In this document: piece after piece, positions 3,401 to 18,950 of the stretch
How the letters are laid out: every line of letters begins with the position of its first letter
Numbering within the stretch: position 1 is the first letter of the stretch
Virus record (IMG/VR): IMGVR_UViG_3300013138_001101
Span: 1-26,433 of that record
From: a virus
Direction: 5' to 3' (one strand)
DNA length: 26,433 nt
Notes under the pieces: generated by a model
Told to the model about the DNA's origin: nothing
Databases searched by the model: none
What the model saw: only the letters and a program-made list of their open reading frames with translations
Program-made: the position numbers and the translations under genes

Positions 3401-4321
3401 TCATGTCACAGGGAAACTAAGCTGGAATCGGTCCAGCAACCAACTGAAATCACGCGTGAAGATGGACCGGTTGTATGCCCGCTCCGTCTCCACCAAATGC
3501 CAGTCTTCGTACAGCGCCCGCTTGGCAGTGCCCAGCAAGCCGTCCTTGGGCAGCCGCCGTTCCAGCCGTTCGGCATGCTCTGGAGGCAGGCAGGTGTGCA
3601 TGCAGAACAGCTTGTTGTACAGCGGATGCCACGGCGCTGCGGATGGCAGCCCGCGCTTGCGGAACTGATGTCCAATTCTGACGCCCTTCAGCATGCGGAT
3701 TTCCCCGCCAGCCAGCCATGTCTTGAGCGACAGCATTGCTTCGTCCACGCCGTAGGAGCGCAGACACCGCAGCGGTTGCAGCCGCAGAAAGAACTCGCGT
3801 GGAAAGAAGTAGCAGGCGCCCATCATGGCGGGCAGTGCATAATCGTCGCCGGGCTGTTCTGGCTGCCACACCACCTCCAACACTTGATTCGCACCTTTGC
3901 GGTTCCGATCCGGCCCGTAGAGGTTGAAGGTGGCCCCGTGATAGAACGAAGTGGAACGCAACAGATCCATGTTGCCGCGCTCCAGCCCAACGCACTGGGC
4001 GCAGTGGGCGATGTTGGGGCGACCGGCAGTCCGTTGCTCTGCCGCGGCGTACCACCCCGGCTCGAAGCGCATGTGCGAGTCAACGAACAGCAGGTAGTCA
4101 CCTGACGCGCGCAGTGCGCCAATGGTGCGGGCTGGGCCTACGCCCACCCGCCGGTTGCAACGGATCACGCGGGCGCCCATTACCTGCGGCACCGGCTGGC
4201 GCGAGGCGTCGTCCACCACCATGATCTCAACCGTATCTCCAACAGTGGCGCGGATGGACTTGATCGTCTCAACACACTCAGGCGTATCGTCGCGGGAGGG
4301 GATGATGATGGAGAGGGTCAC
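3401..4321 (-). CDS. glycosyltransferase resembling polypeptide GalNAc-transferases (GT-A, GT2/GT27-like)
   Basis: I place the start at GTG 4321, overlapping the upstream stop as GTGA, because the GT fold begins at once (TLSIIIPSRDD) and the longer frame upstream is antisense-like. The product has 306 residues. Visible motifs: VEIMVVDDAS (31-40, nucleotide site); FVDSHMRF (79-86), where DSH matches the DxH metal motif of polypeptide GalNAc-transferases rather than the usual DxD; YGVDEAMLSLKTWLAGG (190-206), matching their 'WGGExxExSFRxWxCGG' block; and VRIGHQFRKR (214-223), matching 'VGHxFR'. There is no membrane anchor and no ricin-type lectin domain, so it would act in the cytoplasm. The acceptor is unknown; a Ser/Thr-rich virion protein is a reasonable inference. 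Confidence 0.8.
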   Translation of the reverse strand: MTLSIIIPSRDDTPECVETIKSIRATVGDTVEIMVVDDASRQPVPQVMGARVIRCNRRVGVGPARTIGALRASGDYLLFVDSHMRFEPGWYAAAEQRTAGRPNIAHCAQCVGLERGNMDLLRSTSFYHGATFNLYGPDRNRKGANQVLEVVWQPEQPGDDYALPAMMGACYFFPREFFLRLQPLRCLRSYGVDEAMLSLKTWLAGGEIRMLKGVRIGHQFRKRGLPSAAPWHPLYNKLFCMHTCLPPEHAERLERRLPKDGLLGTAKRALYEDWHLVETERAYNRSIFTRDFSWLLDRFQLSFPVT

Positions 4322-4599
4322 GGCGGAATGATGGACCACTTGGCAAGCACCGCCTTTATGTACGGCACGCTTTGATGACTCGGATAGTGTCGCAAGATGG
4401 TCGGCTGGCACGAGTCGCACGGGTTGTCGAAGCTGCTGCGGACCGGGTGATAACCGTAGCAGCGGGGACATCGCAGGTATGTCTCATCGGCCTTGCGCTG
4501 CTCGGTGCATTCACGCCCCAACCGCAGGGCCAACCGCACTGACTGGCTTGTGACTTGGCCTGTTTCGAGCAAGGCGTCTCTGGCTTGGTTGGGTGTCAT
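4318..4599 (-). CDS. small Cys4 zinc-ribbon-like protein within the glycan cassette
   Basis: 93 residues. The N-terminal half is a charged helix pair. The middle holds CPRCYGYHPVRSS followed by NPCDSCQ, a CxxC-x(n)-CxxC arrangement typical of zinc ribbons. The C-terminal part is helical with aromatic residues. Its ATG overlaps the stop of the methyltransferase gene as ATGA, and its stop overlaps the GTG of the next glycosyltransferase, so it is translationally embedded in the cassette. No enzymatic motif is visible. It could be an accessory or scaffolding subunit, or a DNA-binding regulator. I do not recognise the family. Confidence 0.7.
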   Translation of the reverse strand: MTPNQARDALLETGQVTSQSVRLALRLGRECTEQRKADETYLRCPRCYGYHPVRSSFDNPCDSCQPTILRHYPSHQSVPYIKAVLAKWSIIPP

Positions 4600-5858
4600 G
4601 GCAACACTTCTGGGAAGACGCCGGGGATAATGAACTTGCCACCAAGTTCCGTGTAGCGTGAGTTCTTCTCAATAATCTCCTTTGCGTAGTTCCATGCAAA
4701 CAGCACGGCATAGTCCGGACGCTCACGCAGCAGCGCGCCCTCGTCAACGATTGGCACCGCACTTCCCGGACTGGAGCACCACTGCTTCTGTGGTGTGTTG
4801 TCGGTGATGAATGCGATCTCCTTGCGCGTGAATCCGCAGGCGTTCATCCAAACAGTGCTCTTGGCTGAAGCTCCAAGCCCGCACACGGTTTTGCCCAACC
4901 CCACAAGCTCCTGCACCTTCGAGCGCAATGCCGAAATGGCCAGCCGTGCGCCGTCGTCAAACGCGGCCAAGTCGCTTCGACTCACCTTCTCGGCGTCTAT
5001 CTCCTCCAGCGTGTATGCCTCACTCCACTTGGCGCTGTCCCTCCGGCGCAGGGTCGCCGCCACGGTGCCGCCGTGAATGGTGAAGTGGTGAATCCTGTGA
5101 ATGCGAAACGGAGTGTCTTCCACCGCCGCGCGCAAACCGCGCAGGGTGAGATAAGACAGGTGTTCATGGTACACGGTGTCGAACTCGCAGCGGGCCAGCA
5201 TGTTCAGCGCGTAAGGCGCCTCGATGACGATACGCGTGTCGCGCTCGGCCAGCGCGTCCAGCGCCGACAGGGCGGATTCCCAGTCTTCAATGTGACAGAA
5301 CACATGGCGGGCCAAGATGACATCCGGAATGGGAATGGCCTGCTTGGCAACCGACGCGGTATCCTTGTCAAACAGGCCGCAAATGCTGGTTGCATCTGGG
5401 TGGTTTCGGCGCGAAATCTCCACAAGATTCTCCGCCGGGTCAATCCCGCACGCCGCCGCTCCGTTGGACATGGCAAACCCCATGAAATCACCATCGTTGC
5501 TGCCAATCTCCACCAGAGACGTGATGGGGGCATCGTTGATGAGAGCACCCCACAGGCCCTCAAAATGGCGGCGCATGGTGGCGCTCTTGCTGGTCACATA
5601 GCTGTAGTGGTTGTAGAGGATGTCTGGCCGAACCACCACATCCAACTGCAACAGGCTGCACTTGGGGCAGTGCATCAGCCGGAGCGGAGCAAACCCCGCC
5701 CGCTCCTCACGTTCCTTTCGGAAGTCATTGGCCAATGGTTGAAGCCCTAGATCGAGCACAAGATCGAGAGCCTCAGTGCTGTGAATCGCTTTAATTCCCG
5801 GGGCGTTTGGGTCCTTGCCATAGCCGCAGGCCCGGCAGTGTGTGTGTGGTAGATACAT
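4596..5858 (-). CDS. SAM-dependent sugar C-methyltransferase (three-domain NDP-hexose type)
   Basis: 420 residues with the full three-part layout of TylC3/NovU-like sugar C-methyltransferases. There is an N-terminal zinc-binding part with CRAC (8-11) and CPKC (64-67) plus LGLQPLANDF. A Rossmann SAM domain follows with EIGSNDGDF (117-125) and ARHVFCHIEDWESAL. The C-terminal domain has YHEHLSYLTL (230-239), HGGTVAATLRR and GLGASAKSTVWMNACG (327-342). Family members methylate NDP-4-keto-6-deoxyhexoses at carbon 3, often C-3 branched sugars in antibiotics or surface glycans. Here the substrate would have to come from the host or from genes outside the window. Length is normal for the family and all motifs look intact. 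Confidence 0.88.
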   Translation of the reverse strand: MYLPHTHCRACGYGKDPNAPGIKAIHSTEALDLVLDLGLQPLANDFRKEREERAGFAPLRLMHCPKCSLLQLDVVVRPDILYNHYSYVTSKSATMRRHFEGLWGALINDAPITSLVEIGSNDGDFMGFAMSNGAAACGIDPAENLVEISRRNHPDATSICGLFDKDTASVAKQAIPIPDVILARHVFCHIEDWESALSALDALAERDTRIVIEAPYALNMLARCEFDTVYHEHLSYLTLRGLRAAVEDTPFRIHRIHHFTIHGGTVAATLRRRDSAKWSEAYTLEEIDAEKVSRSDLAAFDDGARLAISALRSKVQELVGLGKTVCGLGASAKSTVWMNACGFTRKEIAFITDNTPQKQWCSSPGSAVPIVDEGALLRERPDYAVLFAWNYAKEIIEKNSRYTELGGKFIIPGVFPEVLP

Positions 5859-5863
5859 GGTGG

Positions 5864-6466
5864 TTATTTGTGGAGCGCCTCTCCATGCGTGACGCAGGTA
5901 AACATGGGGTGGTTGCGTAGATTGCCAGAAACGGCCTTGAACCTCAAACCGCAGTACTTCTCAGCCATCGCGACGGCGATGGGAAGTGTGAGTTGGTCTC
6001 GGTGGGAATACGAGCAGATCAGCGACCACCAGATCGAATTGAACATTGCGACCGCCCCGGTGTGCCGGCGGAAAAGGACGGTTGCCTCCAACAGTGGGAG
6101 TGCATCCGCCTCCCTTGGGTAGTCCGACAACACGCGTTCCGCCTGCGACGCGGACTCGTATCCGAAGTTGACCACCGCCTCCACTTCCTGCCGGATGGTG
6201 CTGCGGCAGTGATGTGAGAAAATGGCCAGTTCCACCCCGTCTGTAAGTGACGAGAAAAGCTCGTCTTCAGGAGCGTTGACACAGACATTTCCGTCAATCC
6301 AAACGCTTCTGTGATGTTCCCTCCATATCTCTGGAGTCAGGTGGTTCAGCACCTTGTACCGCTTGGCCTCCATGCGCGGGGACCCAAGCCGTCCGCTTGG
6401 TTGATCGAAGACGCGAACGTCGTCCCGGCGGGCATCGTATCCGCCAAAGATGGAAGTGTAGATCAT
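5864..6466 (-). CDS. TOD1/MUCI70-like glycosyltransferase (PF04765-type)
   Basis: 200 residues beginning directly with IYTSIFGGYD (2-11), the hallmark of the TOD1/MUCI70 glycosyltransferase-like domain (formerly DUF616). Further family blocks are RMEAKRYKVLNHL (31-43), SVWIDGNVCV (54-63, the putative donor/metal site) and FSHHCRSTIRQEVEA (83-97). Bacterial members occur in surface-polysaccharide clusters and act as single-domain transferases; the donor is not defined. The ATG overlaps the preceding methyltransferase stop (ATGA), and five bases separate the stop from the next ATG. Length is typical for the single-domain form. Confidence 0.82.
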   Translation of the reverse strand: MIYTSIFGGYDARRDDVRVFDQPSGRLGSPRMEAKRYKVLNHLTPEIWREHHRSVWIDGNVCVNAPEDELFSSLTDGVELAIFSHHCRSTIRQEVEAVVNFGYESASQAERVLSDYPREADALPLLEATVLFRRHTGAVAMFNSIWWSLICSYSHRDQLTLPIAVAMAEKYCGLRFKAVSGNLRNHPMFTCVTHGEALHK

Positions 6467-7095
6467 CGGCGCTTCTCTATAACCGCAAGCTCCCTCCAGA
6501 ACGCCACCTTGGCAATATCTCCACAGCCACGGTGCATGTGCATGATGAGCTTGTGCAGGTACTCCATCTGGGTGAGTTCACATGGATTGCAGTAGCCCGG
6601 CTGGCCAGAGCAGGCCAAATCTTCAATGCAGTAAAGCCCACCGGAGACTACGTGCGGCCATAGCTCCTTGAACGATGTCACGATGCCGGATGCTGTGTGC
6701 CCACCGTCATCAATGATGATGTCCCATTCTCCGCCGTTGGATTTGATGAAAGAATCCCAGAAGCCCACAGATGACTGGTCGCCTTGTGTGAAGTGATAGC
6801 GGGGATGTTCGATCTGCGCGTCGAAAGGCTTGCGGTACGGCTTTCCCGGGTCTGGAACATGCGCGTACCGCGGGTCAATCTCGCCGTTCGGCTTGTTGAT
6901 GTCCACCCCGTAAATATTGGCCGCGCTGAAGAACTCAAGCCACATGAGGATTGATCCGCCACCGCCAACGCCGATCTCCAAGATTTTAGCTGGGGCGTGT
7001 TGGTGGGGTTTGAACAACTCATAGTACGGCTCGGTGTAGCCATGCCCGGCCTTGTCAGTGCCGTGTTTTAAGGCTAATTCATGCAGTGCGTTCAT
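6463..7095 (-). CDS. class I SAM-dependent methyltransferase, probably O-methylating a sugar
   Basis: 210 residues. The start HELALKHGTDKAGHGYTEPY and the following ILEIGVGGGGSILMW (38-52, SAM motif I), IYGVDIN (61-67), WDIIIDDGGH (124-133) and GGLYCIEDL (152-160) match macrocin-type/TylF-related methyltransferases seen in glycan gene clusters. Asp and His in IDDGGH are the usual metal-binding candidates. I infer O-methylation of a sugar hydroxyl from the neighbourhood. It overlaps the upstream glycosyltransferase by 17 bases and the downstream one by four. It carries no membrane segment. Confidence 0.85.
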   Translation of the reverse strand: MNALHELALKHGTDKAGHGYTEPYYELFKPHQHAPAKILEIGVGGGGSILMWLEFFSAANIYGVDINKPNGEIDPRYAHVPDPGKPYRKPFDAQIEHPRYHFTQGDQSSVGFWDSFIKSNGGEWDIIIDDGGHTASGIVTSFKELWPHVVSGGLYCIEDLACSGQPGYCNPCELTQMEYLHKLIMHMHRGCGDIAKVAFWRELAVIEKRR

Positions 7096-7684
7096 GGGCT
7101 TTGAGGATCATCGCTCTCACTTGCTGTTTTTCGGCATACGCCCGCGCCCAGAAGTGGTGCAAAAACGGTTTGGCTTCCGGCTCGTGGGTTGATGGATTGG
7201 AGACGGCGGATTCTGGGATGCGGGAGATGCCATCCCTGACGGATCTGAAGTTCTCCTCCATGAACTTTAGCGTGGCTTGGTCGGTGCATCCATGTGCATC
7301 ACTATCCTTCTGCCCCAGAAACCACCACGCATCCAACAGCCTGCGCGACCATTGGCAGTTAAGAAGACCGAACACGCCGGCGCAGAGGCCGTACGCATCT
7401 TGACTCACATCCATAGGAAGCCCTGAGAGGATGCTGGACAGGTCAAAATCATCCCGCAGCAGCGCAACGTCTGCGTCAATCCAAAACACGTAATCCGCCC
7501 CCGAACCATCCAGCCGGGCGCGGAGCAGAGGCACCTTCGCCCAACTGGCCCCGATGGGTGATGTGCCATTCTGGAAATGGAACGCGTAGCCGCGTCTGGC
7601 GGCGTACTGCCTTATAGCCGGAACGGAAACATCTCCAATCGTTCGGAAGAAGTCGTCATGCTGCATCACTATCTCAATCTTCAT
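7079..7684 (-). CDS. DxD glycosyltransferase, GT34/GMA12-MNN10-like
   Basis: I choose ATG 7684 (201 residues) because it overlaps the upstream stop as ATGA and begins the fold at once (MKIEIVMQHDDFF). The longer frame, reaching back to about 8002, is low-complexity Arg/Gly sequence and antisense-like. Key motifs are WAKVPLLRARLD (48-59), YVFWIDADVALL (65-76) with the DxD metal motif DAD, LCAGVFGLLN (100-109), CTDQATLKFM (133-142) and LHHFWARAY. This pattern fits retaining galactosyl/mannosyl transferases of the GMA12/MNN10 type. Donor and acceptor are unknown. The absence of a membrane anchor implies cytoplasmic action. Confidence 0.8.
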   Translation of the reverse strand: MKIEIVMQHDDFFRTIGDVSVPAIRQYAARRGYAFHFQNGTSPIGASWAKVPLLRARLDGSGADYVFWIDADVALLRDDFDLSSILSGLPMDVSQDAYGLCAGVFGLLNCQWSRRLLDAWWFLGQKDSDAHGCTDQATLKFMEENFRSVRDGISRIPESAVSNPSTHEPEAKPFLHHFWARAYAEKQQVRAMILKAHERTA

Positions 7685-8430
7685 AGCTCGGCGCTCCGCC
7701 TTGGAGAGTGTGACCACACCAACAAGGCCCGGGCCATGTCCCTTTCGGATTGCTCCGGACGGATGCTGTGGCACATGTGGTAGTACAGCATCTCGGGAAC
7801 CACTTTCATCGCCACTCCGCTGTTCACCATCTGCTTCTGAAGGTCTTGCTGGTCGAATCCCCACCCCACCAACGCCTCGTCGTACCATCCTCCCATCGCC
7901 ATTGCGAGCTTGTTGGTGCAGAAGCTTGGGCCATCTTGAGCAACCTCCGCGCGCATGGGGTTTCCCGTACAGGCGGAAAGCGCATCCACGTTTTCCCTCC
8001 ACGGAAGGCTGTCCATCGTCTTGGTTGATTGCTCATCAAGCAGCGTGTACCACGGCGTAGCGTAGCACATGGGATTATCCCCCGCCGCGCCAAGCATCTG
8101 TTCACAGAAATCATGGCGATACACACAGTCCGCCCGCATCATCACGAAGATTGGGTGTCTCGCGGCTCGGATGGCCCGGTTGCCAGCCCATGATAGCGTC
8201 TTGATCTGATAAGCTTCATGGCGGACGAAGTGAAACTCGGATTCAAACTTCCCGGTGTCCACATGCTGGCACACCACGTTGGTAATCTCCTCGATGCTGA
8301 ATGGCGAGTTGTTGTCGAAGAAGATGAACTGACTCGGCGCAACCGTCTGGCGCGACACCGTGTAGATGCTGCGTTCCAGATGCTCCAGTTCAACCGAGCG
8401 GAACATTTTGAAAACAAGCGACCACTTCAT
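7681..8430 (-). CDS. glycosyltransferase family 2-like, with galactosyltransferase-type C-terminal motif
   Basis: 249 residues. The N-terminus MKWSLVFKMFRSVELEHLERSI is a GT-A beginning; FIFFDNNSP (35-43) marks the nucleotide site; VMMRADCVYRHDF (96-108) is at the DxD position with RAD, a common variant; GGWYDEALVGWGFDQQDL (180-197) matches the GGxxE...GWGxED block of Glyco_transf_7C-type galactosyltransferases and supplies the likely catalytic acid. The gene follows its upstream neighbour with a single base between TGA and ATG, and its stop overlaps the next ATG. The reaction is probably inverting; the sugar is not deducible. Confidence 0.8.
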   Translation of the reverse strand: MKWSLVFKMFRSVELEHLERSIYTVSRQTVAPSQFIFFDNNSPFSIEEITNVVCQHVDTGKFESEFHFVRHEAYQIKTLSWAGNRAIRAARHPIFVMMRADCVYRHDFCEQMLGAAGDNPMCYATPWYTLLDEQSTKTMDSLPWRENVDALSACTGNPMRAEVAQDGPSFCTNKLAMAMGGWYDEALVGWGFDQQDLQKQMVNSGVAMKVVPEMLYYHMCHSIRPEQSERDMARALLVWSHSPRRSAEL

Positions 8431-8431
8431 A

Positions 8432-9163
8432 TCACCCGGAGTCGGCGGAGGCTGAAAAGACCCGCTTCAACTCATCGGACGCATTGCGCCACATGGTTGT
8501 ATGCCGGTCCTGCACCAAGCAGTTGCTCTGGTCGCCGCGCCTGAAAATGTTGGGAGGAGTGCGCCACTGATCCTTGCGGTACGCCCCATCCCAAGTGACC
8601 AACCTTACGGGATACCCGCAATCCTCGAACCATGTCGAGAAGTTCCAGCAGCCGGACTCGAACCTAAACCCGTCATCGCGGGAGTCCACGCGATACGGAT
8701 ACTCCGACAACACCGCCGGAGAGCACGCGAAGCAAGAGGTGCGGATGTGTGGGTTCGGCCCAGTGTTGCTCCCCAGCGGGCAGTACTCGTATGATGCCGA
8801 CGCCCCAAACAAACCCTCTCCAACCTCCAGGCGCGTTGCGACAAGCCGGGCAAGCCACCCGGGCTTCCAGAAGTAGGTTCTGGAATTCATAAACACAGCG
8901 AAATCGCTGGTCAGGCGTTCCGCCATCGTTTGAAATGCGCCGATGTCCCATCCGTTTGACGCAATCTCCTCAAAGCGGCATTTGATTCCACGGAACAACG
9001 ACCGTTCGCGCTCGGTCGCTACACCATTGCTGCAACAAATGACGACCTCGTGATCTGCTCCGGCTGAGTATTCCCGATACGTGTCCGCCCACATCTCCGC
9101 GCACGCCAGAAACTCGGGGGTCAGGTTGTCCATTGGAAGCTGGTAGATCACTTCGACCTTCAT
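8432..9163 (-). CDS. putative GT-A-type glycosyltransferase
   Basis: 243 residues. The middle shows EIASNGWDIGAFQTM (66-80) followed by DFAVFMNSRTYFWKPGW (87-103), a layout in which the second segment occupies the DxD position (here NSR), then HIRTSCFACSPAVL and FESGCWNFSTWFEDCGYPV, the latter with a Glu/Asp where GT-A enzymes place the catalytic base. This resembles transferases of polysaccharide clusters whose conserved start is 'NxGWDxGA'. A canonical DxD is missing, so an inactive or metal-independent enzyme is possible. Its ATG overlaps the stop of the giant upstream transferase (ATGA). The family assignment is tentative; the glycosyltransferase-like fold is better supported. Confidence 0.65.
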   Translation of the reverse strand: MKVEVIYQLPMDNLTPEFLACAEMWADTYREYSAGADHEVVICCSNGVATERERSLFRGIKCRFEEIASNGWDIGAFQTMAERLTSDFAVFMNSRTYFWKPGWLARLVATRLEVGEGLFGASASYEYCPLGSNTGPNPHIRTSCFACSPAVLSEYPYRVDSRDDGFRFESGCWNFSTWFEDCGYPVRLVTWDGAYRKDQWRTPPNIFRRGDQSNCLVQDRHTTMWRNASDELKRVFSASADSG

Positions 9164-11382
9164 CGCTCAGACTCCTCAATCAGTTGCCATCCCAAGGAGT
9201 GCTTCTCAGGTGAATACGACCTGCCGTGAAACCCAAACGACAACCATTGATTTCCGAATGTCTCCGTCGAAAACTTCAGCGCCAGTTCCCGCGGGGCAAA
9301 GCGCATTCCTTTTTTCTCGAACTCAGCGCGGTGCTTGCGGCAAACCCAGTAGTCCGATGCAATGGTTTCCTCTGCCGGGTACGGGATCGTCAGCTTGGTG
9401 GCAAGCAACCGGTGGCTTTCGATGTTAAAGCCCCCATTCCCCACCACCCCATCTATCCACGGGGCACCGATGTAATCGTACTCCAAAAAGCGGTCGCTCC
9501 ACAGGTGATGCTGGATTGGGAACCCATCTTCATGCACCGACATCGCGAAGTCGCCGTCAATGTGTTTGGGGAGTTCTGAGCAGCAGAAGCGATTCCAGTC
9601 TGTAATGCCGCCAAGCGCAGGTATCTGCACGACCTCGCCCTCCAGCAGATCCCGCTCCGGCTTGGTGCAGCAGAAGAACTTGATGGCGCGGTGACGCGCC
9701 GTGCGGGCACAGTAATTGAGCACGCGCACCGTATGATCTATAAGGTCAGCGTTGGGCGACCAGCAGCAGGACCATAAGACGACGCGGTCGAGATTAAGCC
9801 GAGTCTTCGGCAGTTGGGTGCGCGCTCTCAACGTCGTATTCCACTTCCACAGGTTGTCGCGGTAGAGCTTCTGATTGTGCTTCTGCGCTGGGGCTGAATC
9901 ATACCTGCGCGGGTTGTTCCATTGAGTTGCATGGCGAATGTGGCCCACCCACCCGCGTTCCATTTCGCTACCCGGGAAGCAGGTTGAGAGCTTGCTCCTC
10001 GGGGCGGCCACGCCAAGCTTGTGCCGGATGAAGCACGTCAGCCAAATGTCGAACTCGCTGGCGCCGAGGATGAAATCCGGGATGTCATCCCAATGCTCTC
10101 GCAACCAAGACGCCCGGAATGCGAACAGATCCCTGCCGTTGTGGTTTTTATCTACGTTGGCCTTCCCCCATTGCGACGCAGCACCAGTCGGCGGTCTGCG
10201 GTTGAACTCGCACCTCGGGATGGACACGGCGGGATAGCGGCCAAGATGCTCACGCAGGGCGCCGGGAAGATCGGGATGGAGAACGGTGTCGTCGTTTGTC
10301 CACATCACGATCTCGTCACCTAACGCGCACGCGTCGAGCGCAGGCTTCAGAACATCCTTCAAATAGGGAAGGTCCAATGAATCCCCAATATCCTTGGCGC
10401 TGCGGAGGTACTGGGAATAGTGATGCGGCACAACCCCAAGCGTGAGGTAACACACATCCCAAGAATCCCACGCATACCGCTTGCGTTGCAATTCCACTGG
10501 GCTTCTGATGATGTGTCTCTCTACAGCGTGATGAATGACGGGGGACTGTTTTGTCCGTGCCACGCATACCTGCCGGACCTCATGGTTCATCAACTTGGAG
10601 ACAAACGCCGCAGCCGATCTGGATAGTGCATCATTCCTGATTGGCCTCAACTCGACACGCCCACGCTTGATCTGTCCCCGCATGAGCCGCTGGTGCAGAT
10701 CGCGCTCCGAACGGCTCCAGCCATCCATCTGCCCGGCCCTGTCGTCACCCATCCCAGAGATGTGGTACACCCCGTTTCCCCAGCAGTAAATGAAGCTGAT
10801 GTCTTTGCCGCCGAGTTCAAGCCGTAGTCCGCCGGCCTTGGTGATGCGCGACACGAAGTTGCGGTCCTCACCGCAGTTCATCGAGTCATACTTGCCCGCC
10901 TTGATCCAAGCGTCCCGCGTGAACGCTACAACATTGGCCGATCCCTGAACCACCTTCTCAATCCTGCCGCCCAACGAGTAGAGTTGGCTTCCCAACCAGA
11001 CCCACGGGTAGTCCGCGAAGTTGTTCCCGAAGTTGCTCAGATGATGCGGCAGGTAGTAATCGTCGTCATCCCACGTAACAATGTGCGTGCCATGACTGGC
11101 TTCGATGGCCATGTTGCGCGCCTCACCCAAAGACGGCGGACGACGGCTGCAGTTGATGATGCGGATGCGCGGGTGCGGATCGGCCAGCACCAACTGCTGC
11201 TTGGGCCATGTGTTGAACACGACCAACTCACTCGGCCCTTGGTAGTCTTGGGCAAGATAGGCCGCGATGGCTTCTTCAAGGTGTTCCGGCCTGCCCGCCG
11301 TGAGGCAGATGGCGGACAAGAACGGCAGGTTGTTCGGCGCGTCGCTCACAGTGCCAAAAGTGTCACCAATGCCCGCGTCCAT
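9160..11382 (-). CDS. three-module glycosyltransferase fusion (GT2 + GT-like + DUF5672)
   Basis: I choose ATG 11382 (740 residues), 13 bases after the upstream stop; the longer frame overlaps the vWA gene. Module 1 (about 20-240) is a GT2: LSAICLTAGRPEHLEEAI, LGEARNMAIEASHGTHIV, TWDDDDYYLP (104-111) and a GED at 171-173. Module 2 (about 305-515) looks like another GT-A-like domain: VCYLTLGVVPHHYSQYL, IVMWTNDDTVLHPDLP (358-373), FILGASEFDIWLTCFIRH. Module 3 (about 535-730) is DUF5672-like: FPIQHHLWSDRFLEYDYIGA, VVGNGGFNIESHRLL (646-660), EETIASDYWVCRKH. One protein could therefore add up to three sugars in series. It is the first gene of the glycan cassette and directly follows a virion-protein gene. 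Confidence 0.8.
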   Translation of the reverse strand: MDAGIGDTFGTVSDAPNNLPFLSAICLTAGRPEHLEEAIAAYLAQDYQGPSELVVFNTWPKQQLVLADPHPRIRIINCSRRPPSLGEARNMAIEASHGTHIVTWDDDDYYLPHHLSNFGNNFADYPWVWLGSQLYSLGGRIEKVVQGSANVVAFTRDAWIKAGKYDSMNCGEDRNFVSRITKAGGLRLELGGKDISFIYCWGNGVYHISGMGDDRAGQMDGWSRSERDLHQRLMRGQIKRGRVELRPIRNDALSRSAAAFVSKLMNHEVRQVCVARTKQSPVIHHAVERHIIRSPVELQRKRYAWDSWDVCYLTLGVVPHHYSQYLRSAKDIGDSLDLPYLKDVLKPALDACALGDEIVMWTNDDTVLHPDLPGALREHLGRYPAVSIPRCEFNRRPPTGAASQWGKANVDKNHNGRDLFAFRASWLREHWDDIPDFILGASEFDIWLTCFIRHKLGVAAPRSKLSTCFPGSEMERGWVGHIRHATQWNNPRRYDSAPAQKHNQKLYRDNLWKWNTTLRARTQLPKTRLNLDRVVLWSCCWSPNADLIDHTVRVLNYCARTARHRAIKFFCCTKPERDLLEGEVVQIPALGGITDWNRFCCSELPKHIDGDFAMSVHEDGFPIQHHLWSDRFLEYDYIGAPWIDGVVGNGGFNIESHRLLATKLTIPYPAEETIASDYWVCRKHRAEFEKKGMRFAPRELALKFSTETFGNQWLSFGFHGRSYSPEKHSLGWQLIEESER

Positions 11383-11395
11383 GTCAATGCTGAAA

Positions 11396-14344
11396 TTACG
11401 GAAACGATCCCAAGTCTGTGAACACCGACAGGTAGAACCAAGTCCAACCGGAGTAGAGCGGAGTGTCATCAACGACCCACAGCTTCCACGAACCACGGGC
11501 GGTTTCTCCAATCAAATCCGCAAGCGATGTGGAGAACGGCCCAGACGGGCCCGGAGATGGGAATGGGTCAATTTGCACTCCGTAAACCTTGGGTAGATAA
11601 AATGGGCCCACATCAACCACAGAGACGGCGCGAGAATGTTCAGGTATGTCCACCGTTCCCTCTGAATGTAAAACGAACAATCGCTCTACGGACGATCCGA
11701 TGTCTGCTCCCTGAGAATTGCCGAACAAGTAAACGCAGGTCCCATTAGGGGACTCCAAGATCATGTGAACGTCACGAGGGTCCCCATGTGCCATGCTAAT
11801 TTCCAACTGCACATTGCTGATGATTATAGCGTCCTCCGGGCAGTCTATGTACTTGACCTGCGGATACAACTGCGCTTTGGCCGGCCCAACTGCGCCGCTC
11901 GCCCTGTCTAAGATCGTGTTGAGTTGAAGATTGTTCGATCCCGCGCACACCAGCGCCGCCTCGGCGGCTGTCTTGGCCAACGCCGCGGCCTGTTCCTGCG
12001 CGTCCTGCTGGCTGATGTAGCTGGTGTAGGTCGCACTGCGCGTCACGTCCGATCCAAGGCCACTTTCACAGTGGGCTATGTATTGCGCGGTTTCCGTCCA
12101 GTAAGCCACACAATTCAACCTTGACTGTGCCAGCGCCAGCGCCGCATCGGTCGCAAGCTTGTCGGCGTGGACCTGACTGATCTCGCTGGTGGCCGAGGCT
12201 GTGGCGCATTCTTCGCCTTGCTCAAGCCCGTCCGGCTCCATTCCCTCCGGGCACTCCGCGCACGCCTCCTGCGTGCTGGTGTATGTCTTGGGCGGCGTGT
12301 AGCCTGCCTCAATGTCACTCAACGGATTTGGGTCCTGCGTCTGCACCGGCGGCGGCGAATCAAGGCACCCCTCGCCGTAGCAGAAATAGCCGTAGCCGTA
12401 GCCGTATGTGCCGTCGTCCAGCAGATGGTAGAGTGTGCCAGTGCCGCAGTCAGGCGCCACATACGTCGGATTTTCGTCGTCGAAGTCGTCACTGAATTCC
12501 GTGCTGCCGTCTGTCAGGTTCAGTAGTCGCACCTGATCCACCAGCAGCCCGATGGAGTCGTAGCCGGCTGGGGTGGCGGTCTGTTGCACGGACAAAAACA
12601 CGTCGCCGGTGGATGGCGCGGTAAAGGACAGGTAGTATTCCTTGAAGTCCTGCTTGAAATCGCTGATGGCGATTTGCTGGTTCAGATGATAGATGGGCGT
12701 ACCCGTGGCGTTTGTCTCCGCCGGATAGATCGAATCATCCACCGCTCCGCTCGCGATGCTTGCAAGCATCGCTGTCTTGCGGGTGGTGTCGGCGTAGGTG
12801 GTCGAGTCCGGCGCCGCTTCCGCAATCAGATAGTATCGGCTCTCCGGGCTGGCGCCGGTCGTGCGGTAGATGCGAATGAGCGTGGCATTGACGTTGGCTG
12901 CAAGCGTTACGTTTACCTGCGCGTCTTCCGTGCTCACCGTCGCCGACGCCGCCGCGCTTGCATCCGTTTCTCCATTGGCGTTGACGTAGCTGTAGAGGTA
13001 GGAGTACGTCTCCGGAGAATCCAACGGCACGGCGCCTTCGGCAGTCACCGGAACTGGAGCGGCGGGGGTGTCCAGTCCGTCGTTGTTCCGCTCGAACACC
13101 TGCACGCGCAGCGCGTTGGGCGTGGCATTGATGCGCTGATTGCCGGCGATCTTGAGGGCCAGCGCGTACTGCTTGCCAAGTGTCACAGCGATGCTCGCCT
13201 CGGTGACGATCTTGCCTGAGTATTCCGCGCGGCTGCCCGCCATGTCGAGATACAGGCCGTTCCCGGGCAGCAGATCCATCACGCCGCCGCCCACCAAGTC
13301 AACGTGCCCTTCGGTCAAACGCCAGTTGGCGAACCCGCCGTAGTTGAGCTTGCCGGCGGGCACGTATTCGTCGCCTGTGTCAGCGCAGTTGCCTCCGCAC
13401 ACGTACGAGCGCAGGCCGGTCAGGTAAGCCAACGTCGCGTCCGCCGTGTCGTCGTGGGCGTTGATGAAGAACCCGCCGGTGGAGAATGCCATCAGTAGGT
13501 TGTACGCCGGCCCCCACGCGCGCACCCCCACGCACAACACAATCCCGCCGGACTGCTTGAAGTCGTTCAGCAGCGCAATGGGGTTGTCATCCGATGTGTA
13601 GGACGTGTCCGTGTCCTCACCGTCGCTCAACAGCACAATCATCTTGCGGTCGGCGCTAACTCCGGCCAGGGCGGTGACGGCGGCCTCCATCGCGTCGTAG
13701 AAGCTGGTGAGTTGCTGGGTCTGGACAAGGCCATCCACCAAGGCCGATACCGCCGCGGTGTCGGCGGACGGGGCGGAGTGCGTCGTCGCAACTTCCTTGG
13801 TGAACGAAACAAGCCCCACGGTGTCCTTGGTGGAGTTGACCGACTCAATGAAATCCTTCGCCGCTGCTTTGGCATAGGCCAGCTTGGAACCGTAATCTGC
13901 GTTGAACGCCTGCCCCATTGACTTGGTGACATCCACGACCACCATGAAGGCCGTGCTGATTTCCTCGCAGCACAACTCGCCCGTGAGCGTCGTGATCTCC
14001 GCATAGGCCGTCATGCCTTGATAGCTGGCGGAGATGGTGGCCGTGCCGGCAGCCAGTCCGGTCGCGTTGCCACTGAGGGCGCCAATGACCGCCACGTTCG
14101 GATCGGAGCTTCGCCAAACGCACGACGCGGTCACGTCTGTCTCAACGCCGCCTTGAAACATTGAAGCGGAGAACTGCACCGAGCCCAGTTCGCACAGCAG
14201 CGACACGCCTGGCTTCACAAGAAGCAACGGCGCTTGCGGGCAGGTGTCCGGGTTGTTGAGCGCGAACGCCGGGTCGGAACACCGGCTGTCCGGCGGCGGC
14301 GCTACATTCAGGCAGGGGGCTTCTGTGATGCGGCCAAAGCTCAT
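11396..14344 (-). CDS. large multidomain virion-associated protein: Ig-like, vWA, DUF642-like, P-domain
   Basis: 982 residues from ATG 14344, which overlaps the adaptor stop (ATGA). Residues 45-120 form a BIG2/Ig-like domain (VWRSSDPNVAVIGALSGNAT, GLAAGTATISASYQGMTAYA). Residues 130-315 are a vWA domain with MIDAS residues D138-x-T140-x-S142 (DVTKS), T213 and SDGED (240-244). Residues 335-420, plus a later half (YYLSFTAPSTGDVFLSVQ ... LLVDQVRLL), look like a DUF642/galactose-binding-like sandwich with an Fn3-like insert (YSYVNANGETDASAAASATV). Then come Cys-rich repeats like those of the adaptor, and finally a proprotein-convertase P-like domain (LEISMAHGDPRDVHMILESP ... GSWKLWVVDDTPLYSGW). 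The domain mix suggests adhesion or glycan binding on the virion. There is no signal peptide. Confidence 0.75.
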   Translation of the reverse strand: MSFGRITEAPCLNVAPPPDSRCSDPAFALNNPDTCPQAPLLLVKPGVSLLCELGSVQFSASMFQGGVETDVTASCVWRSSDPNVAVIGALSGNATGLAAGTATISASYQGMTAYAEITTLTGELCCEEISTAFMVVVDVTKSMGQAFNADYGSKLAYAKAAAKDFIESVNSTKDTVGLVSFTKEVATTHSAPSADTAAVSALVDGLVQTQQLTSFYDAMEAAVTALAGVSADRKMIVLLSDGEDTDTSYTSDDNPIALLNDFKQSGGIVLCVGVRAWGPAYNLLMAFSTGGFFINAHDDTADATLAYLTGLRSYVCGGNCADTGDEYVPAGKLNYGGFANWRLTEGHVDLVGGGVMDLLPGNGLYLDMAGSRAEYSGKIVTEASIAVTLGKQYALALKIAGNQRINATPNALRVQVFERNNDGLDTPAAPVPVTAEGAVPLDSPETYSYLYSYVNANGETDASAAASATVSTEDAQVNVTLAANVNATLIRIYRTTGASPESRYYLIAEAAPDSTTYADTTRKTAMLASIASGAVDDSIYPAETNATGTPIYHLNQQIAISDFKQDFKEYYLSFTAPSTGDVFLSVQQTATPAGYDSIGLLVDQVRLLNLTDGSTEFSDDFDDENPTYVAPDCGTGTLYHLLDDGTYGYGYGYFCYGEGCLDSPPPVQTQDPNPLSDIEAGYTPPKTYTSTQEACAECPEGMEPDGLEQGEECATASATSEISQVHADKLATDAALALAQSRLNCVAYWTETAQYIAHCESGLGSDVTRSATYTSYISQQDAQEQAAALAKTAAEAALVCAGSNNLQLNTILDRASGAVGPAKAQLYPQVKYIDCPEDAIIISNVQLEISMAHGDPRDVHMILESPNGTCVYLFGNSQGADIGSSVERLFVLHSEGTVDIPEHSRAVSVVDVGPFYLPKVYGVQIDPFPSPGPSGPFSTSLADLIGETARGSWKLWVVDDTPLYSGWTWFYLSVFTDLGSFP

Positions 14345-16548
14345 GGACAGGGTCCTCCGTAACAGATGTTCCACGCATTCTGAGTCGGACACGTCCGATT
14401 GACGAACGAGTTGGCAATTTGACTCCCCTCAATCTCACATTGGCTGTTGGCAATAAGCTGTGCCGTACTGTTCGCCTCGGCAACTGTTGATGCCACCGGC
14501 CCCCTCCCAACAGGCACCATGTAGTTGACCACGAAGCTTCTCTGCACGGGCTGCATTAACCCCCGGCACGTCATCACGAATGTCTTGCGACAGAACTTCA
14601 TCGTGTCATTGCTGTAAGACCCGACAGGCTCTCCGCCACACACCAAATCTTCCGTTGCGTTGGATAACGCCTTCGCCTCCGCCTCGTTATTGAGCGCATC
14701 CTGCACAGACTGCGAGTATTCCGGGGTAGCGTTGGTGATCGTTCTCCAAATGCTCTTTGCTTCCGCCACACCATCAACATCTGGTCCCTCTTGCCCTTCT
14801 GGACAACTGGCGGTTGCTTCTTTTCTGGCGTTGTAGTAGGTGCATTCCAGTTGTGCGTATGCCAAATCGTAGGCTGCGATTTTCGCCTTATCGGTGGCGT
14901 CATCTTCAGATTTCTCAGACGAGTATCCCCCACTATTAGGACCTCCGCGCGGGATTGTAATAGACACTGTTTGCCCTTCAGGAAGCGGGTTGTCATCGAA
15001 CGCCTTGCAGGACACGCTCACATCCACTTGGCGGTTCCAGTATGTATTTGTCACGCTTTCACAGACAAGCAATGCTTCAGCCTGACGCTTCGCCTCCTCG
15101 TACGCCAGTTCGTTTGCGTCCTCCTTGGACTTCGCGGAGCCAACCGTGTCCGCAGGAACGGTGTAGGTCTGGCTGGCGCCGGTCGTTCCAGAAGGACAGC
15201 GCGCTGTGTAAGGCTGGGCATCATTGTAATAGAGGGGCAGCGTGGAGTCTCCAGAAACTCCACGCGCATGGCTCGGTTCACACTCGCGGGCGCGCGTCTC
15301 CTCACGGCACTCATGCGCGAGGTCTTGCAACGCAAGGTTGAACTCGCGCTCGTACACGCGCATCTCCTCGATGTCCTTATTCTCGTCGCGGGCAATCTCC
15401 TTCTGCACCCACATCTTGACGGCTCGAATCAGGTCAGGATCGTCGTCAATCCGGTCGCCATCCGTCCACTCACGCTTGATACCATCCCAGCGCAGAATGA
15501 TCGTCTCAGTGGACTGAATCCACGGCGCCACCAGCACGCGTCCGCGCTCGACAGCCCAGTAGCCGCGCGTTGCCCTGCTCGTGGCGTCGGTGGAAGTCTG
15601 TGGGTAATGGTAGCCCAGCGGTAGCGGCGCAAGTCCGGTGGGCAAGCCTTCATCGGTTGGCACAGGCGCCACGCCCTTGCCGCCAAGGCAACTGGCTGGA
15701 ATGGCGAGATACAGGTCAAGCGGCAGGCAACAGCCACACCGCTGGCTGCCGGCGATATACTGCCTCAACACACACGCGTCCACCTGTTCGTACACGATCT
15801 CAGAGCACCAGTCACGCCCTGTCGCCGCCGTGGCGGTGCCTCCGGAAATCGTGAACGGTCCGAACGTAAGATTAAACAATGGATGAGTGATGGTGGTCGG
15901 TGTAATCTGTATTCGATATAGAAGATATTCGGTCGTATTCGTGAAGCTGACATCGAGGGCTTCGTCAACCGTCCAGTCTGGCGCGTCTTGTTGATCTATT
16001 TGCGTCCACGACGCCCCGTCGTTCGATGCCACAATCGTAAACGTTAATTCCTGCGCGCGGGCGGCGCGAAATACCAGCGTGAACTTCGTTGCCACGACTG
16101 CGGTGGAAAACCGGAACTCAGCGTAGGCGGGCGTTGTGAGGTTGAAAAACTCCCATGTGTTGGAGTTGACCAGCGCGTCCGTGATCTCGGTCGCTACAAT
16201 ACTCGCCCCACCGCTGGTTTTGGCAAACACGCCCGCGTAGTCACTGCTGGCACTATCTCCAAGCACCGCAGCCGGGCTGGCGTCAGCCTCATTCTCATTG
16301 TCAATCACGCTCAGGCGCTTGATCCGCGCCCGATAGAAGTCGAACGAGGTAAGCCCGCAGTTGTAGTGCGTGGCGCAGTGGGGCACCAGATCGGTATTGT
16401 TCTGCTGCCAACACTCGACGTACTTCTGAATCTCGATCAGCGCGTCCACGATGTACCGGTCATGGGCGGCCCGCCGGCTGCGCGGCTCGCCCGCCGACCA
16501 GACATCCTCGCGCACGCGGGTTTTGAGATCGAGAAGCGTGATGCTCAT
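14341..16548 (-). CDS. head-tail adaptor-like protein with discoidin-like insert and Cys-repeat tail
   Basis: 735 residues. Residues 1-85 (LLDLKTRVREDVW, HDRYIVDALIEIQKYVECWQ) and 325-425 (GYWAVERGRVLVAPWI, TIILRWDGIKREWTDGDRI, AVKMWVQKEIARDENKD) have the pattern of podoviral head-tail adaptor/gatekeeper proteins. Between them, about 100-235, lies a beta-sandwich insert resembling F5/8C discoidin domains (TFTIVASNDGASWTQID, TEYLLYRIQIT). The last 300 residues contain four repeats (about 447-497, 501-570, 576-638, 648-705) of the form Cys, 'YTVP/ITIP', Ala/Glu helix, Cys, similar to DUF5977-type repeats. Placement between the capsid and tail genes supports the adaptor call. The extensions are unusual and may project from the portal vertex. 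Confidence 0.6.
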   Translation of the reverse strand: MSITLLDLKTRVREDVWSAGEPRSRRAAHDRYIVDALIEIQKYVECWQQNNTDLVPHCATHYNCGLTSFDFYRARIKRLSVIDNENEADASPAAVLGDSASSDYAGVFAKTSGGASIVATEITDALVNSNTWEFFNLTTPAYAEFRFSTAVVATKFTLVFRAARAQELTFTIVASNDGASWTQIDQQDAPDWTVDEALDVSFTNTTEYLLYRIQITPTTITHPLFNLTFGPFTISGGTATAATGRDWCSEIVYEQVDACVLRQYIAGSQRCGCCLPLDLYLAIPASCLGGKGVAPVPTDEGLPTGLAPLPLGYHYPQTSTDATSRATRGYWAVERGRVLVAPWIQSTETIILRWDGIKREWTDGDRIDDDPDLIRAVKMWVQKEIARDENKDIEEMRVYEREFNLALQDLAHECREETRARECEPSHARGVSGDSTLPLYYNDAQPYTARCPSGTTGASQTYTVPADTVGSAKSKEDANELAYEEAKRQAEALLVCESVTNTYWNRQVDVSVSCKAFDDNPLPEGQTVSITIPRGGPNSGGYSSEKSEDDATDKAKIAAYDLAYAQLECTYYNARKEATASCPEGQEGPDVDGVAEAKSIWRTITNATPEYSQSVQDALNNEAEAKALSNATEDLVCGGEPVGSYSNDTMKFCRKTFVMTCRGLMQPVQRSFVVNYMVPVGRGPVASTVAEANSTAQLIANSQCEIEGSQIANSFVNRTCPTQNAWNICYGGPCP

Positions 16549-17216: not shown

Positions 17217-18950
17217 TTACTGAGGGGTTGTGGGCGTGGTGGTCGTAGTCGTAGTTGGATAAGTCAGACCTTCCGTCTCCGTGATCTCTGGCACGTCGTC
17301 ATTGAAGTTCTCGATGATGAGGTTTCCGGCGGGGCACTCAACTACCACTGCGTACGTCATACTGAACAACGATTGCGTTTGCGTGTGAACCTTCATCACG
17401 CACGCAAAGTCGCTGTTGATGCGGGCGAGGTCTTGAAGCCTGCCTGTCTCAGCGATCACGCGGCTGCTGCCGATGATGCCTGGATAGATGCCCGAGAAGT
17501 CGAGTACCCACAGCATGCGGGCGCTGTCCTTGATGCCCGCGAGGTTCGCCACGTCCAACTCGTCATCGAACGCGTAGTGCGTGATGACGTTCATCACGGC
17601 ACCTTGCGGCGTAAAGAGCGGGTAGCTCTTGTAGTAGAACCCGAAGTTCGCCTTCTTCGCCGTGGAGAAGCCCTCCACCGGCATGTTCAACCGCAGCGTG
17701 GTCGCGTCATTGTGGTCCGCGGACTTGGACGCGTAGTACTTAATCATCGCGCGGTTGATGAGTTCCGCCGTGAACGTGTCGGTGAATACGTCAACGATGC
17801 GGTTGCGGTTGCCCTGCGATTCACGCACGCGCAGGATGTTATAGAACGCCACGAACAGCGCCGGCAGGTTGAGGGCGCCGCCTGCAAGGTCTACCACGCG
17901 CCCGCACTCGGCCAGTTGCTCCAGCACGCCCGTTGCCTCGGCACGCTTGCCGACGCAGATGCCGCCGTCCACACCCAGCCCAAGCGAGGAGCCGTCGAAT
18001 GCGGTGATGTCCTCCAACGAGGTGAAGTCCGCCAACGTCTGGTTGGCGCTGATCGGTTTGGCGAAGAAGAAGTGATTCACCCAATGCTTCTGCTGCGTGG
18101 CCATGAGTTGCTGGTTGCGCTTCGTCTCAGGCAGGTCGAAGAACTTCCGGTAGAGCGCGTTGGTCTTGAGCATCAACTCGCGGTACTGCTGGTACGCGCT
18201 GCTGTTGCAGTAGCTCCAGCGCATGGTCTGCATCCAAAACGGCACCAGCTTGTTGTTCAGGTAAGCCGGCTGCTCGTCGCAGTTCTTCTCGAAGTCGCTC
18301 ACATTGTTCGGGCCGACACGGAGGTAGCCCTGCACCCCGTTCTGACACGGTTCGTCGTCCGTCTTGCACGCGTCGAGGTTGGTCGCCGCGTTCATGGCGT
18401 CAATCACGAGCGTCAGCGTGTCGTCGCCATTGTCGGTGCAAGACACCACCTCGAACATGCTCTCAGTGCGGACACCGCCCTCGCCCGTGCTGAAGACGTG
18501 GACGCGCCGGCCCGCCGGGAAAGTGCGCGTGTCCGCCGGGATGTTGGTCGGCGATGTGACCTGCAAGCTCCAGTAGTTGCCGGACGCTTCGCCTGCCGAC
18601 ACAAGCCAGAACTCGTTGTTGATCGGCGAGTACTGGTCCGCCTTGATGAAGGGCGCAATCTGCAACACGTCCGCGTTGACGCCCTGCGGCACAACCTTGT
18701 GGCTCATGTTGACCTTGTTGGCCATCAGGAACTCGTAGAGCCCGTTCTGATTGGCCTCGCACTGCTTGATCTCGAAGTCCGACATGAGCAGCGCGTCAAG
18801 CACGCGCATGTCCCCCGAGCTTTGGTAAACAGTACTCAGGTCATCGGTCGTGAGCGGAATGGCGTCGCACAGCGCGACAGAGCCGCACTGCTTGATGTTC
18901 GTGGAAATCGCGGGCGCGCATTTCGCGAAGGCATTGGCATTAAGAGTCAT
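17217..18950 (-). CDS. putative major capsid protein with mucin-like Thr/Pro tail
   Basis: 577 residues, the third sizeable gene after the terminase in the canonical terminase-portal-scaffold-capsid order and followed by its own hairpin; these are the main reasons for the call. The sequence mixes beta-rich and helical parts (QYSPINNEFWLVSAGEASGN, KYYASKSADHNDATTLRLN, SRMLWVLDF-type strands) and has several cysteines near the N-terminus. I recognise no specific capsid signature, and it is longer than many HK97-fold capsid proteins. The last 15 residues contain ten threonines and three prolines (TYP, seven T, P, TTPQ), which looks like a mucin-type O-glycosylation stretch. A large capsid-associated protein is the alternative. 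No clear Shine-Dalgarno precedes the ATG. Confidence 0.68.
   Translation of the reverse strand: MTLNANAFAKCAPAISTNIKQCGSVALCDAIPLTTDDLSTVYQSSGDMRVLDALLMSDFEIKQCEANQNGLYEFLMANKVNMSHKVVPQGVNADVLQIAPFIKADQYSPINNEFWLVSAGEASGNYWSLQVTSPTNIPADTRTFPAGRRVHVFSTGEGGVRTESMFEVVSCTDNGDDTLTLVIDAMNAATNLDACKTDDEPCQNGVQGYLRVGPNNVSDFEKNCDEQPAYLNNKLVPFWMQTMRWSYCNSSAYQQYRELMLKTNALYRKFFDLPETKRNQQLMATQQKHWVNHFFFAKPISANQTLADFTSLEDITAFDGSSLGLGVDGGICVGKRAEATGVLEQLAECGRVVDLAGGALNLPALFVAFYNILRVRESQGNRNRIVDVFTDTFTAELINRAMIKYYASKSADHNDATTLRLNMPVEGFSTAKKANFGFYYKSYPLFTPQGAVMNVITHYAFDDELDVANLAGIKDSARMLWVLDFSGIYPGIIGSSRVIAETGRLQDLARINSDFACVMKVHTQTQSLFSMTYAVVVECPAGNLIIENFNDDVPEITETEGLTYPTTTTTTTPTTPQ

Follow-up and report, generated by a model that had tools for sequence, protein, structure and literature searches.

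The question raised by this locus is what a bacterial virus would do with an enzyme resembling those that start mucin-type O-glycans on proteins. The window, that is, the whole stretch of DNA that was analysed, is an IMG/VR virus record of 26,433 bases, in which the reported open reading frame, running from 4321 down to 3401, was confirmed (Table 1). Its GTG start overlaps the stop of the upstream gene; an in-frame ATG is found upstream at 4471, yet the homologues begin near the GTG. A preliminary description of this DNA had recognized in the protein the hallmarks of the polypeptide GalNAc-transferases (GALNT, family GT27) and had suggested a cytoplasmic, lectin-less phage version that could initiate protein O-glycosylation.

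Table 1. Position of the features discussed in the text.
Feature	Position	Strand	Remarks
Mom-like DNA modification protein	142-669	plus	phrog_1384, 1.3e-37; adjoins structural region
Virion structural protein, 602 aa	1577..3385	minus	phrog_3287; flanks cassette
GT27-like glycosyltransferase	3401..4321	minus	GTG start, 306 aa, catalytic domain only
IGHQFR, residues 216-221	3659..3676	minus	H218 corresponds to third Mn ligand H359 of GALNT2, R221 to R362
YGVDEAMLSLKTWLAGG, residues 190-206	3704..3754	minus	corresponds to GALNT2 block W331-G347
D193-E194 of phage protein	within YGVDEAMLSLKTWLAGG		occupy GALNT2 E334-N335 positions
DSH, residues 81-83	4073..4081	minus	corresponds to Mn ligands D224/H226 of GALNT2 (alignments)
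Sugar C-methyltransferase-like	4596..5858	minus	Methyltransf_13/23/14
TOD1/MUCI70-like glycosyltransferase domain	5864..6466	minus	phage-borne
Methyltransferase	6463..7095	minus	Methyltransf_24, phrog_21658
GT34-like glycosyltransferase	7079..7681	minus	PF05637
GT2-like glycosyltransferase	7681..8430	minus	PF00535, PF10111
783-aa protein	9160..11511	minus	N-terminal GT2 domain and C-terminal DUF5672
998-aa structural protein	11396..14392	minus	phrog_511; flanks cassette, other side
Major capsid protein, 577 aa	17217..18950	minus	HK97 fold; proposed acceptor
Thr-rich C-terminal tail of capsid, PTTTTTTTPTTPQ	17220..17258	minus	proposed O-glycosylation sites

The DSH, WGGE..CGG and GHxFR blocks are collinear with those of GT27, in the order and spacing that had been described, and the alignments are gapless between the W/Y position and HxFR (residue equivalences were taken from HMMER alignments). 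DxH is present in 26 of 26 aligned homologues, in place of the DxD metal motif of ordinary GT2 enzymes, and the C-terminal His in all 25 full-length ones; D81, H83 and H218, the predicted Mn ligands, are invariant in every homologue covering the site. GALNT2 binds Mn through Asp224, His226 and His359, and its Arg362 stands at the head of a flexible loop controlling access to the site (PMC4432651); the position of R221, equivalent to Arg362, is Arg in 22/25 homologues. The WGGE-type block was borne out in part: it aligns, and the aromatic residue at the W331 position is kept as W, F or Y across homologues, but the Glu of 'GGE' (E334) is not conserved, being D, S or E in the phage family, and the next position (N335, residue 194 here) is Glu in 23/25 and Glu or Asp in 24/25 full-length homologues; the WGGE-N/Q motif of GT27 is not found.

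Searches with the whole protein agree with the motifs. As a single sequence it retrieved GALNT10 from the PDB at 3.6e-11 (phmmer), the first 16 matches being all GT27, and an eight-member profile, built from the window's protein and seven viral homologues, reached GT27 at 3.9e-15, while the best enzyme outside this family scored 3.7e-4 and ordinary GT2 enzymes only 4e-4 or worse. Judged by sequence, the similarity to GT27 is far beyond chance. An AlphaFold2 model, obtained without templates from an alignment of the window, viral and one bacterial homologue, had a pLDDT of 90.3 and a pTM of 0.90, and its 50 best Foldseek matches were all GT27. VIA-align placed residues 1-306 of the model on residues 136-442 of GALNT2 (Z 31.2, 2.2 Å rmsd, 282/306 residues), thereby covering the full-length GALNT catalytic fold, the structural match being expressed as Z score and range; outside GT27 the next family was that of GlfT2 (Z 20.9), followed by human B4GALNT1 (19.0) and chondroitin polymerase (18.3). 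Since the model covers the GALNT catalytic domain end to end, the phage protein corresponds to the catalytic domain and nothing else: it stops where that domain stops, the C-terminal ricin-type lectin domain is absent, and no transmembrane, stem or N-terminal extension is present in its 306 residues. The lectin domain is typical of GT27 but absent from Toxoplasma pp-GalNAcT4 (PMC6939170). The claim of a cytoplasmic lectin-less phage protein, with polypeptide GalNAc-transferases as its nearest solved relatives, thus holds for both sequence and model, and the result that had been set against it, a best match to ordinary GT2 enzymes with no correspondence at the metal site, came out opposite.

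DxH instead of DxD has been described as specific to two families of polypeptide O-glycosyltransferases, GT27 and GT60, that work in a shared mode (PMC7185993). GT60 (Skp1 Gnt1, the Trypanosoma cruzi enzyme; PF11397) consists of polypeptide alpha-GlcNAc-transferases, and GT60-like proteins of viral and bacterial contigs have a DSHMRFExGW block in common with the phage family; the GT60 feature of a DxH inside the DSHMRF block is present in the phage protein, and three of these relatives have two acids in the xED region (GEE or SEE), as in the phage family. Comparison with the three by hhalign gave 98% probability over 198 columns at 18% identity, spanning the N-terminal two thirds only, and the phage protein did not reach PF11397 (E 0.25; 11.2 bits, the cut-off being 21). 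Because the E334-N335 pair is [D/S/E]-E here, the enzyme is named GT27-like and strict GT27 membership is not claimed; from its sequence it is described as belonging within the GT27/GT60 group and is filed in neither family.

The statement that such enzymes are mainly animal needs to be softened. Sporadic bacterial GT27 annotations exist, among them one in Singulisphaera acidiphila (PMC5352709), and a full-length GT27-like homologue with 31-33% identity is carried by a contig of an Aminicenantes MAG (L014, 2584-3636), where its neighbours are ordinary genes of a chromosome, for an ABC transporter and for purine synthesis, which means that a cellular version exists; a 199-genome sample of the same phylum held two homologues. 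Given these annotations and the chromosomal homologue, a prokaryotic GT27-like enzyme is not without precedent. In the phage record collection the protein had one weak match, in an unannotated faecal phage; a near-DNA search with the structural genes and tblastn with the capsid, terminase and portal proteins gave no match there, and hence no isolated phage of the group was found in that collection. Duplicated forms were also seen: a 637-aa protein of another virus record (IMGVR_UViG_3300033145_002449; L022, 7986-9896) has two tandem GT27-like domains, the second with a DGH motif and EHKFKK, and both halves look DxH-type, and a 621-aa frame of a Burkholderiaceae MAG contig (L015, 1392-3255) has tandem GT60-like domains with IDAHMRF and IDSHMRF.

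The gene ends a cassette of glycan enzymes (4596-11511) that lies between the 998-aa and 602-aa structural genes, in a late region with portal-like, scaffold-like and capsid genes. It adjoins the 602-aa gene in the window and in three related records (G003, G017 and G021), the place of the cassette being identical. Relatives of the 783-aa protein were present in 15/15 GT27-like-positive records tested, and this GT2/DUF5672 protein is probably the elongating enzyme. The 998-aa protein contains, by eye only, an internal sequence like a von Willebrand A domain (VVVDVTKSMGQ...).

The capsid protein was modelled with a pLDDT of 70. Among HK97-fold capsids the model resembles VP1 (1.5e-12) and crAss001 most closely, and it also matches viral predicted capsids; in this predicted structure the protein is nearest to crAss-like and VP1 capsids. 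Among its relatives the core is kept and the tail is hypervariable in sequence: one large group has Thr-rich tails (TTTTTTYH, TSTTTTTTPT, VTTTPAD and others), while other relatives end without a Thr run (DLYQV, DYYY, SSDTYV). A microsatellite origin of the run was ruled out by its mixed Thr codons, which make selection at the protein level likely rather than DNA slippage. The capsid gene of G003 is the sole one of 86 open reading frames with such a run. In some capsids (L051, L054, L052, L159, L043 and L046) an additional domain of about 60-100 residues lies C-terminal to the Thr run, with an Ala/Gln-rich end (SQADANAKALSAATLAAQQQLVC), similar to segments of the window's 735-aa protein.

A GT27-like profile search was run over the capsid-bearing records. 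The Thr-rich tail was found in 18/18 positive records (window included) and in none of the 16 informative records without the gene, the latter being those whose sequence extends far enough around the capsid gene for the cassette to fit; records with the capsid near a contig end were excluded. The first tail rule, TTT, gave 16/18 against 0/16 (Fisher 7.0e-8) and missed two Ser/Thr-run tails (TSTTSTT, TTSTTSTT), for which reason 3 Thr in 5 residues was adopted as the final rule (Fisher 4.5e-10); both values ignore shared ancestry, and once this is allowed for, no more than two or three contrasts are independent. In a capsid tree built with the tail columns removed, gene and tail agree in both of the only two independent pairs that have support. 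Of the contrasts, G031 (66 kb) is the best placed: here the 998-aa and 602-aa homologues are adjacent with one 224-aa open reading frame between them, the cassette is missing, no PF00535 protein occurs anywhere in the 66 kb, and the capsid ends in EHAVEGATYLPQ, lacking the Thr tail. This record branches inside the Thr-tail group, the single-clade alternative being rejected with moderate support (AU p 0.028). That the tail tracks glycosyltransferases in general was ruled out by two other long records, G076, with other GT2 genes present and both the GT27-like gene and the Thr tail absent, and G084, on a long branch, with a relative of the 783-aa protein and neither gene nor tail. These indicate that the tail follows the GT27-like gene; as all cassette genes associate with the tail, it is only through these two records that the GT27-like enzyme is singled out.

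Since the gene occurs, across related phages, exactly where the capsid has a Thr-rich tail, the phage probably sugar-coats its own shell. We hold with moderate confidence that a minimal cytoplasmic enzyme of the GT27/GT60 group starts O-glycans on the capsid Thr tail, that the cassette extends them and that a glycan-coated capsid results. Late in infection, the cytoplasmic enzyme would use D81, H83 and H218 to bind UDP-sugar and Mn and would transfer a first sugar, probably derived from UDP-HexNAc, to Thr/Ser in the disordered capsid tail; the 783-aa GT2/DUF5672, GT34-like, GT2-like and TOD1-like proteins and the sugar C-methyltransferase would then extend and decorate the glycan. The coat might serve in shielding, adhesion or stability. 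It is the co-occurrence that suggests the tail as acceptor, and Thr tails could have other reasons for existing. The observation made in the preliminary description is therefore confirmed and its interpretation partly supported, protein O-glycosylation being favoured indirectly, by a plausible acceptor and by the co-occurrence.

Other explanations have to be weighed. One of them is about mechanism and would leave room for the capsid as acceptor: an inverting enzyme on a GT27-like fold, with Glu as base and a beta-linked sugar placed on the capsid or another acceptor, is possible but rather doubtful. It draws on the acid that nearly all full-length homologues have at residue 194, given that in inverting GT-A enzymes the catalytic base, usually an acid, stands at this second position of the pair, where GT27 has Asn/Gln (PMC7185993); with a Glu at that place, the linkage is not readable from the sequence. 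Nevertheless, sequence and structure are overall nearest to the retaining GT27, DxH has been described for GT27 and GT60 only, and the three GT60-like relatives also have two acids, a characterised GT60 enzyme making an alpha linkage (PMC6939170).

The remaining explanations change the acceptor. A polypeptide enzyme of GT27 fold could act on another virion protein (tail or neck) or on a host protein, the capsid tail being left to a different cassette enzyme or to none; Thr-rich stretches occur also in the G017 homologue of the 735-aa protein and in a 428-aa protein of G021, and the association with the tail is common to the cassette genes, but the confinement of the Thr run to the capsid protein in G003 and the lack of Thr tails in informative records without the GT27-like gene make this unlikely. 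Many phage glycosyltransferases modify host envelope polysaccharide or O-antigen, and an ordinary enzyme of this type, unrelated to protein, would suit the databases, as Pfam gives only the generic PF00535 (54.9 bits, cut-off 23.3, N-terminal 92 residues only), which is not known to distinguish GT27 from other families, and PHROGs gives 'moron' glycosyltransferases; with the gene among late structural genes, no polymerase, flippase or GtrA-like match among the cassette proteins in Pfam, a structure and motifs of polypeptide transferases and the association with the Thr tail, such a role is very improbable. Least credible of all is a glycosyltransferase for hypermodified phage DNA: phage enzymes of this kind are known (Pyle 2024, as cited in PMC12619734) and the window has a Mom-like DNA modification gene, but DxH enzymes are linked to polypeptides, the location is late and structural, and the link with the capsid tail would go unexplained.

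Few cases of virion glycosylation are known in tailed phages, with the initiating enzyme and residue mostly unclear. GT27/GT60 enzymes and phage capsid glycosylation are known already; a GT27-like phage enzyme, a Thr-rich, mucin-like capsid tail and the combination of the two were not found in the literature searched, whose coverage was incomplete. The likely acceptor is the new element. A polypeptide Ser/Thr enzyme class together with a defined short acceptor tail makes the proposal testable with one enzyme and one peptide. If true, bacterial viruses would have a minimal counterpart of the mucin-type O-glycosylation machinery, which would bear on the origin of GT27 and GT60 and offer a small cytoplasmic lectin-free enzyme to sugar-tag Thr-rich tags in bacteria. 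In a broader and more tentative reading, a group of bacterial viruses may run mucin-type O-glycosylation in which a lectin-less GT27/GT60-like initiator puts alpha-HexNAc on a mucin-like poly-Thr tail of every major capsid protein and the late cassette, itself variable, makes the glycan, tail and initiator being gained and lost together, and the family may connect the bacterial and viral DxH transferases with eukaryotic GT27/GT60.

The nearest precedent is found in mycobacteriophages, whose capsid and tail-tube proteins have been reported to be glycosylated C-terminally, the capsid glycans being described as an antibody shield (Freeman 2023, as relayed in PMC12619734 and PMC11256854). Phage Che8 has a glycosyltransferase cluster (candidate enzymes gp108-110) and reportedly a glycosylated capsid protein. 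Its enzymes, unlike the GT27-like protein, are GT2/methyltransferase and GT25-like, and its capsid ends in NKTGS, without a Thr run; a close relationship of the Che8 enzymes to the GT27-like protein is not supported, gp109 having no GALNT-like match. GmaR, a PDB entry and the O-GlcNAc transferase of Listeria flagellin, has a GT2-type domain and O-glycosylates protein, and its profile match is weak (E 3.7e-4) and confined to the N-terminal 86 residues. With GT27 (human GALNT2/GALNT10, Drosophila PGANT9, Toxoplasma GalNAc-T3), the phage protein has the catalytic fold in common, as well as DxH, the C-terminal His, the W331-type aromatic, the R362 equivalent and the PxxxG block; it differs from GT27 in its identity of about 20%, in lacking the lectin domain as well as any transmembrane or stem region, in [D/S/E]-E for E334-N335 and DSHMRF for DSHCE, and in its cytoplasmic phage setting.
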